NCBI GenBank assembly: GCA_903643055.1
Contig: CAHJWV010000627.1
Span: forward strand, 1-7,287
Origin: Burkholderiales bacterium
GTDB taxonomy: Bacteria > Pseudomonadota > Gammaproteobacteria > Burkholderiales > Burkholderiaceae
Length of the DNA stretch: 7,287 nt
Direction of reading: 5' to 3'
The notes beneath the pieces were generated by a model. That model was not told the DNA's origin. It ran no database searches and was given only the letters and a program-made list of their open reading frames with translations. The position numbers and the translations under genes were made by a program. Positions 5,376-6,871 of this stretch are shown piece by piece (the stretch's first letter is position 1; each line of letters begins with the position of its first letter).

Positions 5376-5903
5376 ATGGCCATCTATCAGCTCGAAGCGC
5401 AGTCGCCGGTCATTGCCGAATCGGCCTGGGTGGCCGATTCGGCGCAGGTCATCGGCCAGGTGACGCTGGCCGAGAACGCCAGCGTCTGGTTCGGTGCGGT
5501 GATCCGTGGTGACACAGAAAGGATCGAGATCGGCCGCAACAGCAATGTGCAGGACGGTTCGGTGATCCATGCCGATCGGGGCTTTCCGACCGTCATCGGC
5601 AGCGAGGTGACGATCGGCCATCAGGTCATGCTACATGGCTGCACGGTCGGCGACGGCTCGCTGATCGGCATTCAGGCGGTGGTGCTCAATGGCGCGAAGA
5701 TCGGTCGCCATTGCATCGTCGGTGCCGGTGCGCTGGTGACCGAAGGGAAGGAATTTCCGGACGGCTCGATGATCATCGGCTCACCGGCCAAGATCGTTCG
5801 CCAGCTGACGGCCGAGCAGATCGAAGGTCTGCAACATGGCGCCGCGCATTACGTCGAGAACGCGCAGCGCTACAAGACAGGGTTGAAGAAGTTGTCGTCA
5901 TGA
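5376..5903 (+). CDS. Gamma-class carbonic anhydrase-like protein (YrdA/PaaY type)
   Basis: A 175-residue left-handed beta-helix protein built from hexapeptide repeats (about residues 10-135), followed by a C-terminal helix, the usual size for bacterial YrdA-type proteins. It carries the gamma carbonic anhydrase metal site: H65 (in VIHAD), H82 and H87 (GHQVMLHGC). The associated R44 and D46 (IRGD) and Q59 and D60 (NVQDG) are also present. These correspond to Cam R59, D61, Q75, D76, H81, H117 and H122. The extended acidic loop with the Cam proton-shuttle Glu is absent, as in other short homologues, so CO2 hydration activity is uncertain. A trimer with a metal at each interface is expected from the family. 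GGGAG at 5362-5366 precedes ATG 5376 by nine bases. Its TGA overlaps the natural hslO ATG (ATGA 5900-5903), indicating translational coupling. Confidence 0.93.
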   Translation: MAIYQLEAQSPVIAESAWVADSAQVIGQVTLAENASVWFGAVIRGDTERIEIGRNSNVQDGSVIHADRGFPTVIGSEVTIGHQVMLHGCTVGDGSLIGIQAVVLNGAKIGRHCIVGAGALVTEGKEFPDGSMIIGSPAKIVRQLTAEQIEGLQHGAAHYVENAQRYKTGLKKLSS

Positions 5904-5929
5904 GTGAATTGCACAAGTTCCTGTTCTAA
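5900..5929 (+). other. hslO: Nine-codon N-terminal fragment of hslO ending at an in-frame TAA
   Basis: ATG 5900 overlaps the upstream TGA and encodes MSELHKFLF, then TAA at 5927-5929. Reading through the stop in the same frame gives GLPVRG and joins the HslO body at ATG 5948. Against E. coli HslO (QLHRYLFENFAVRGELV) the stop falls exactly on the conserved Glu of LFE. One base change (GAA to TAA) would explain it. The short product has no function of its own. It could serve as a leader that delivers ribosomes to the restart 18 nt further on. A base-call error is the other simple explanation. Confidence 0.85.
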
Positions 5930-5947
5930 GGCCTGCCGGTTCGCGGC

Positions 5948-6871
5948 ATGCTCGTGCGCCTGACCGACAGCTGGCAGGAAGTGCTGCGCCGGCGCGAGAA
6001 ATCGCAAGACCCTTTTCCGCCCGCGGTGCGCGAGCTGATGGGCGAGATGGCCGCGGCCGGCGTGCTGATGCAATCGAACATCAAGTTCGAAGGCGCACTG
6101 ATTTTGCAAGCGCATGGCGATGGGCCGGTGAAGCTGGCCGTGGCCGAGGTGCAGAACGATCTGGCCTTTCGGGTGACCGCGAAGGTGATCGGCGAGGTGC
6201 CCGATGGCGCGCGCCTGGAATCGATGCTGAACGTGAAAGGTAAGGGCCGCTGCGCGATCACGCTCGATCCGAAAGACCGTTTTCCGGGCCAGCAGCCTTA
6301 CCAGGGCGTGGTCGGCCTGCATGGCGATCAGGGTGAGCCACTGCAACAGCTGAGTGAAGTTCTTGAGCACTACATGCTGCAATCCGAACAGTTGGACACC
6401 CGCCTGATCCTGGCTGCCAATGACGATGTGGCCGCCGGCCTGCTGATCCAGCGCATGCCGATGCAAGGCGAGGGCAACCTCGAAGGCCAGGCGGGCGGGC
6501 TGCGCAACGAAGACGAGATCGGCATCAACGAGGCCTACAACCGCATCTCGCACCTGGCCGCCACTCTGACGCGCGAAGAGCTGCTGACGCTCGACCCGGA
6601 AACGGTGATGCGCCGCTTGTTCTGGGAAGAGACGGTGCGGCGCTTCGAGCCGCAGGCGCCGCGCTTTGCCTGCACCTGCTCGCGCGAGCGCGTGGGCAGC
6701 ATGCTGAAGGGCCTGGGCCGCGAAGAGACCGACAGCATCATTGCCGAACAAGGCCGCGTCGAGATCAGCTGCGACTTCTGCGGGCTGCAATATCACTTCG
6801 ATCCGGTGGACGTCGGCGAGCTGTTCACGCCGCCGCGCGACCATCCGCCGGCTTCTACCACCCTCAACTGA
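5948..6871 (+). CDS. hslO: Hsp33 redox-regulated chaperone HslO, lacking its normal N-terminal 16 residues
   Basis: Cytoplasmic holdase chaperone activated by oxidation, which protects unfolding proteins during oxidative or chlorine stress. The 307 codons from ATG 5948 cover nearly the whole family length. The substrate-binding core includes QAHGDGPVKLAV, YQGVVGLHGD and QSEQLDTRL, close to the E. coli sequence. The C-terminal zinc redox switch is intact: C242 and C244 (CTCSRE), C275 and C278 (CDFC), with the E. coli spacing. Oddity: the natural reading frame begins at 5900, but codon 10 is TAA, so the first beta-strand is lost unless there is readthrough. ATG 5948 is the first in-frame start after that stop and has no good Shine-Dalgarno (AAGG at 5928-5931 is 16 bases away), so restart by coupled ribosomes is the likely route, and expression may be low. 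The body shows no other frame damage, which argues for a recent mutation, a sequence error, or a working short form. The family call is secure; function is uncertain. Confidence 0.88.
   Translation: MLVRLTDSWQEVLRRREKSQDPFPPAVRELMGEMAAAGVLMQSNIKFEGALILQAHGDGPVKLAVAEVQNDLAFRVTAKVIGEVPDGARLESMLNVKGKGRCAITLDPKDRFPGQQPYQGVVGLHGDQGEPLQQLSEVLEHYMLQSEQLDTRLILAANDDVAAGLLIQRMPMQGEGNLEGQAGGLRNEDEIGINEAYNRISHLAATLTREELLTLDPETVMRRLFWEETVRRFEPQAPRFACTCSRERVGSMLKGLGREETDSIIAEQGRVEISCDFCGLQYHFDPVDVGELFTPPRDHPPASTTLN

Follow-up and report, generated by a model that had tools for sequence, protein, structure and literature searches.

Introduction

Hsp33 (HslO) is a redox-regulated chaperone, a holdase of oxidative and heat stress, whose zinc-cysteine motif consists of four cysteines arranged as CxC...CxxC. 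E. coli is viable without the respective gene, hslO. Within species, the presence of Hsp33 can vary: in a report on Tetragenococcus halophilus, hslO is described as unique to one lineage (PMC8605565). The accessible parts of this and three other reports (PMC6561319, PMC8548342 and PMC12967825) deal with stops or frameshifts in genes other than hslO; all four belong to the open-licence literature, and a natural hslO nonsense allele may be reported elsewhere. Termination followed by reinitiation at a nearby start is covered in a further paper (PMC6728339).

The hslO gene analysed here lies in a 7,287-nucleotide stretch of DNA, referred to as a whole as the window, from a Rhizobacter-like bacterium (Sphaerotilaceae). 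It shares with Hsp33 (PF01430) the family assignment over its whole open part, the zinc cysteines and, bar the stop, the N-terminal segment, but differs by an in-frame TAA at codon 10, with a single open frame from residue 17 only. With regard to ordinary nonsense alleles and young pseudogenes, it is alike in carrying a single private stop one base away from the commonest sense codon in an otherwise intact gene, and differs in having no further disabling change. The explanation that we favour, with moderate confidence, is a recent nonsense mutation at codon 10 that is private to this bacterium and has left the rest of hslO intact. The stop is an ordinary event, a nonsense change of one codon that was seen in either a single population or a single assembly.

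Results

The hslO reading frame and its in-frame TAA

The hslO frame on the forward strand opens with the ATG at 5900-5902, which sits within an ATGA overlap with the end of the upstream gamma carbonic anhydrase gene, and reads MSELHKFLF, TAA (5927-5929) and GLPVRGM before continuing open until the TGA at 6869-6871. The start of the gene is thus a run of nine codons plus stop (5900-5929). The first in-frame ATG past the TAA, at a distance of 18 bases, is codon 17 (5948-5950), a possible restart, from which the remaining 307 open codons extend (5948-6871). An earlier, sequence-only reading of the window had reported the TAA at codon 10, the ATGA overlap and the ATG at 5948, and the sequence agrees at all of these positions. 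The same reading had matched the N-terminus to E. coli HslO without gaps, which was borne out via a full-length relative, P0004, whose segment ELHKFLFEGLPVRGMLV aligns gaplessly with QLHRYLFENFAVRGELV of E. coli Hsp33 (PDB 1i7f). An unbroken frame over the N-terminal VRG segment is absent in the window hslO, where the TAA precedes GLPVRG. Since the 14 residues around the TAA (codons 2-9 and 11-16) are identical to the family consensus, the frame across the stop is no chance reading.

The 307-residue open part matched the Pfam model HSP33 (PF01430) with 222.5 bits, compared to a gathering cut-off of 21.4. Its score of 199.8 against the NCBIfam equivalog NF001033 lies below the cut-off of 244; this shortfall is not caused by the stop, as three full-length relatives (214.6, 202.7 and 207.4) also fall below it, as does another homologue, P0012 (179.8). 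The four zinc cysteines, stated before to be kept, were found as CTCSRERVG...CDFC beginning at residue 242 of the short form, and the CxC...CxxC motif is present in all 120 homologous proteins listed.

Codon 10 and the start region in relatives

For comparison, we used the best 80 (L001-L080) of at least 586 stretches encoding an hslO relative in a genome-contig scan. Codon 10 is a sense codon in 80/80 of them: GAA in 49, GAG in 19, GAC in 8, GAT in 2 and CAA in 2. The residue had been called a conserved Glu; this is correct for 68/80 of these relatives, the others having Asp (10/80) or Gln (2/80). Both GAA, the commonest codon, and CAA are one base from TAA. Relatives sharing the TAA and conserving the downstream ATG with a ribosome-binding site, named earlier as an argument against a fresh nonsense mutation, were not encountered, since a stop at codon 10 occurs in 0/80 of these best relatives. 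In a broader sample of 399 genomes from the family to which the genome of L002 belongs, hslO was matched in 384 and not in 15, and a count by eye gave no internal stop among the 150 matches listed.

Codon 1 is ATG, GTG or TTG in 76 of the best 80 relatives and another codon in four. Codon 17 is ATG in 72, CTG in 6, CAG in 1 and GTG in 1; as this is a conserved Met codon, the window's ATG at 5948 does not point to a special start. Among the 120 listed homologues, 110 carry the N-terminal motif FxGxPVRG, seven, including the window's own protein, were called from codon 17, and three belong to neither class (two with a variant motif and one starting two residues before codon 17). The upstream DNA of the six other homologues called from codon 17 was seen for P0012 only, via L001 (near 563-611): there, the upstream frame is open from a TTG at the usual start, and the codon-17 start is probably a start-site misannotation. 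Calling a gene from codon 17 therefore does not prove that a stop lies upstream.

In a protein tree of 41 of the 81 sequences (the window plus L001-L040), the window hslO adjoins two Rhizobacter sequences (L002 and L003) with support of 94/87, which is below the star of the tool.

Constraint on the gene and age of the stop

The part of hslO downstream of the TAA is without signs of decay. The window hslO has no departure at any of the 92 columns in which the other 80 sequences (L001-L080) are all identical, and departs, like the median sequence, at one of 140 columns conserved to 95% or more. Its GC3 is 0.82, with 0.79-0.93 for the neighbouring genes. An old or established pseudogene was set aside on the basis of these column counts and of the lack of any further disabling change.

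The consensus residues next to the stop allow its age to be bounded. All 14 flanking residues are common to 40/80 of the best relatives and at least 12 of them to 72/80. The 14 codons comprise approximately 31.7 nonsynonymous sites. With free drift of 0.095 or more changes per site, the chance of finding every residue untouched would be 5% or lower, so that such drift since the stop arose is limited to less than about 0.095 changes per site (P = 0.05). By comparison, the end branch leading to the window in the protein tree of hslO measures 0.21 changes per column, accumulated under selection. Undrifted flanks, together with this bound relative to the end branch, suggest that the stop is young relative to the lineage, or else not real, and the lack of decay in the rest of the gene leads to the same two readings.

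A comparison of nonsynonymous with synonymous change, as proposed in the sequence-only reading, could be made but carried little information. Among codons that differ by a single base between the window and L001, we counted 73 synonymous and 30 nonsynonymous changes, and six other window pairs had 75-101 synonymous and 21-29 nonsynonymous ones; six pairs of intact relatives had 53-89 and 17-35. The nearest relatives are too distant for this comparison to say more.

Nonsense mutation, sequencing error or readthrough

The same total lack of decay fits equally well with an error of one base that arose when a metagenome contig was sequenced or assembled, in which case the hslO gene of the organism would be intact and constraint would be unrelaxed on either side of the TAA. 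We regard such an error as a serious possibility, albeit a clearly less probable one than the nonsense mutation. It is in line with the lack of a stop in any of the best 80 relatives, and the proteins of the window are known from only two contigs of about 7 kb, as expected for a thinly sampled metagenome organism. On the other hand, no other gene in the window is broken, as oppA, the complete M13 metallopeptidase gene, the carbonic anhydrase gene and both genes truncated at the window edges are open, and the same 307-residue protein is on record from two contigs. This protein and an identical carbonic anhydrase are each recorded from two contigs (the longest has 7394 bases); apart from these identical proteins the closest ones listed are 79% (hslO) and 80% (carbonic anhydrase) identical. 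Since an open start at 5900 would most likely yield a longer called protein, and no longer version of the identical hslO protein is found among the 120 listed homologues, both contigs probably carry the stop. The two contigs with the same protein favour a real base, yet they may rest on the same reads, and one of them is perhaps the window's own.

The conserved residues on either side of the TAA are also what would be left if the stop were read through or recoded and full-length Hsp33 produced. We consider this extremely improbable, as the stop at codon 10 occurs in none of the best 80 relatives and oppA in the same window terminates with TAA, for which reason the TAA in hslO is probably an ordinary stop here. 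A changed genetic code was set aside as improbable because of the TAA that ends oppA. The sequence-only reading had offered four options, of which nonsense mutation and sequencing error are favoured, and readthrough and a short form are disfavoured by the absence of the TAA from the best 80 relatives.

ATG 5948 as a start codon and possible consequences of the stop

If the nonsense mutation is real, ribosomes starting at ATG 5900, in coupling with the carbonic anhydrase gene, would stop after nine residues and full-length Hsp33 would not be made. Some ribosomes may restart at ATG 5948 and yield small amounts of a 307-residue protein that lacks residues 1-16, and we regard some short protein from this ATG as plausible. 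As the missing 16 residues hold the conserved LPVRG segment, such a protein would probably be weakened. Tolerance of oxidative and hypochlorous stress, which the sequence-only reading had expected to suffer from a lost or weakened Hsp33, might then be affected. The nonsense allele itself would be young and perhaps transient.

Alternatively, the lineage might make a working Hsp33 from ATG 5948 as a settled short form, with the nine-codon frame acting as a leader to bring ribosomes there. We assessed the start sites by scoring the upstream pairing with the 16S rRNA tail. For ATG 5948, the best pairing within the 21 preceding bases was -2.7 kcal/mol, in a segment ending 12 bases upstream, which is not above the background set by the window's 27 internal in-frame ATGs (median -2.8 kcal/mol). 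The starts of the other genes in the window gave -6.9 (carbonic anhydrase), -6.8 (oppA), -7.2 and -3.0 (M13 genes) and -5.8 (copD), and the native hslO start at ATG 5900 gave -3.3. In the best 80 relatives, the median pairing was -3.5 before an ATG at codon 17 (n=72) compared to -2.7 before codon 1 (n=80). The native hslO start therefore appears to be weak, presumably being coupled to the upstream gene, as codon 1 of the relatives pairs no better than codon 17.

The slightly better pairing of the codon-17 ATG in relatives is a point in favour of a settled short form, as are the in-frame position of ATG 5948 only 18 bases beyond the TAA, the conservation of the downstream part of hslO and the seven codon-17 calls, the window's own included, among the 120 listed homologues. 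In addition, restart past a nearby stop has been described (PMC6728339); the window likewise has an in-frame ATG 18 bases past a stop, within an ATGA-coupled gene, but unlike in that system the restart is only putative and its ribosome site is not above background. The main argument against a long-standing short form is that the 14 residues flanking the TAA are undrifted. Moreover, the conserved LPVRG segment would be missing from the protein, the pairing at ATG 5948 is no better than background, and a search among the best 80 relatives for a shared, settled short form found the stop in 0/80. Altogether, we consider a settled short form unlikely, and still less likely a version in which the nine-codon leader, coupled to the carbonic anhydrase gene, gives rise to a short and perhaps differently regulated Hsp33 as the working form of the lineage.

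The confidence of predicted structures was too low for assessing the loss of the 16 residues, both for the short form (mean pLDDT 48.3, pTM 0.33) and for the full-length relative P0002 (mean pLDDT 52.1, pTM 0.49). The model of P0002 has residues 3-8 and 14-21 as strands, with pLDDT below 50.

Should the base be real, the nonsense mutation would mean that one strain or population has naturally lost or weakened its Hsp33, a small data point on the dispensability of Hsp33 among free-living bacteria. In the case of an error, it is a mere warning against inferring function from a single contig. Either way, the knowledge of Hsp33 is unchanged.

Genomic neighbourhood

On the reverse strand, the window contains two tandem genes of M13-family metallopeptidases, the first (1-1380) cut by the window edge and comprising the N-terminal domain only, the second (1468-3480) with both domains, as well as oppA (3561-5162), which encodes a family 5 solute-binding protein (PF00496) and has no neighbouring permease gene within the window. 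Neither the M13 peptidase genes nor oppA had a match near hslO in 91 loci (L001-L080 spanning up to 6 kb on either side). The two genes next to hslO are on the forward strand, like hslO itself. The upstream gene (5376-5903) encodes a 175-residue protein of the gamma carbonic anhydrase family with hexapeptide repeats (PF00132); its best NCBIfam model is NF050158 (gamma carbonic anhydrase), with 185.6 bits and thus without reaching the cut-off of 250. Downstream, the start of a gene for a CopD-like membrane protein (PF05425, 38.7 bits) extends from 6886 to 7287, where it is cut by the end of the window. Among the best 80 relatives, the carbonic anhydrase gene is found upstream of hslO in 72 and a copD match after hslO in 14.
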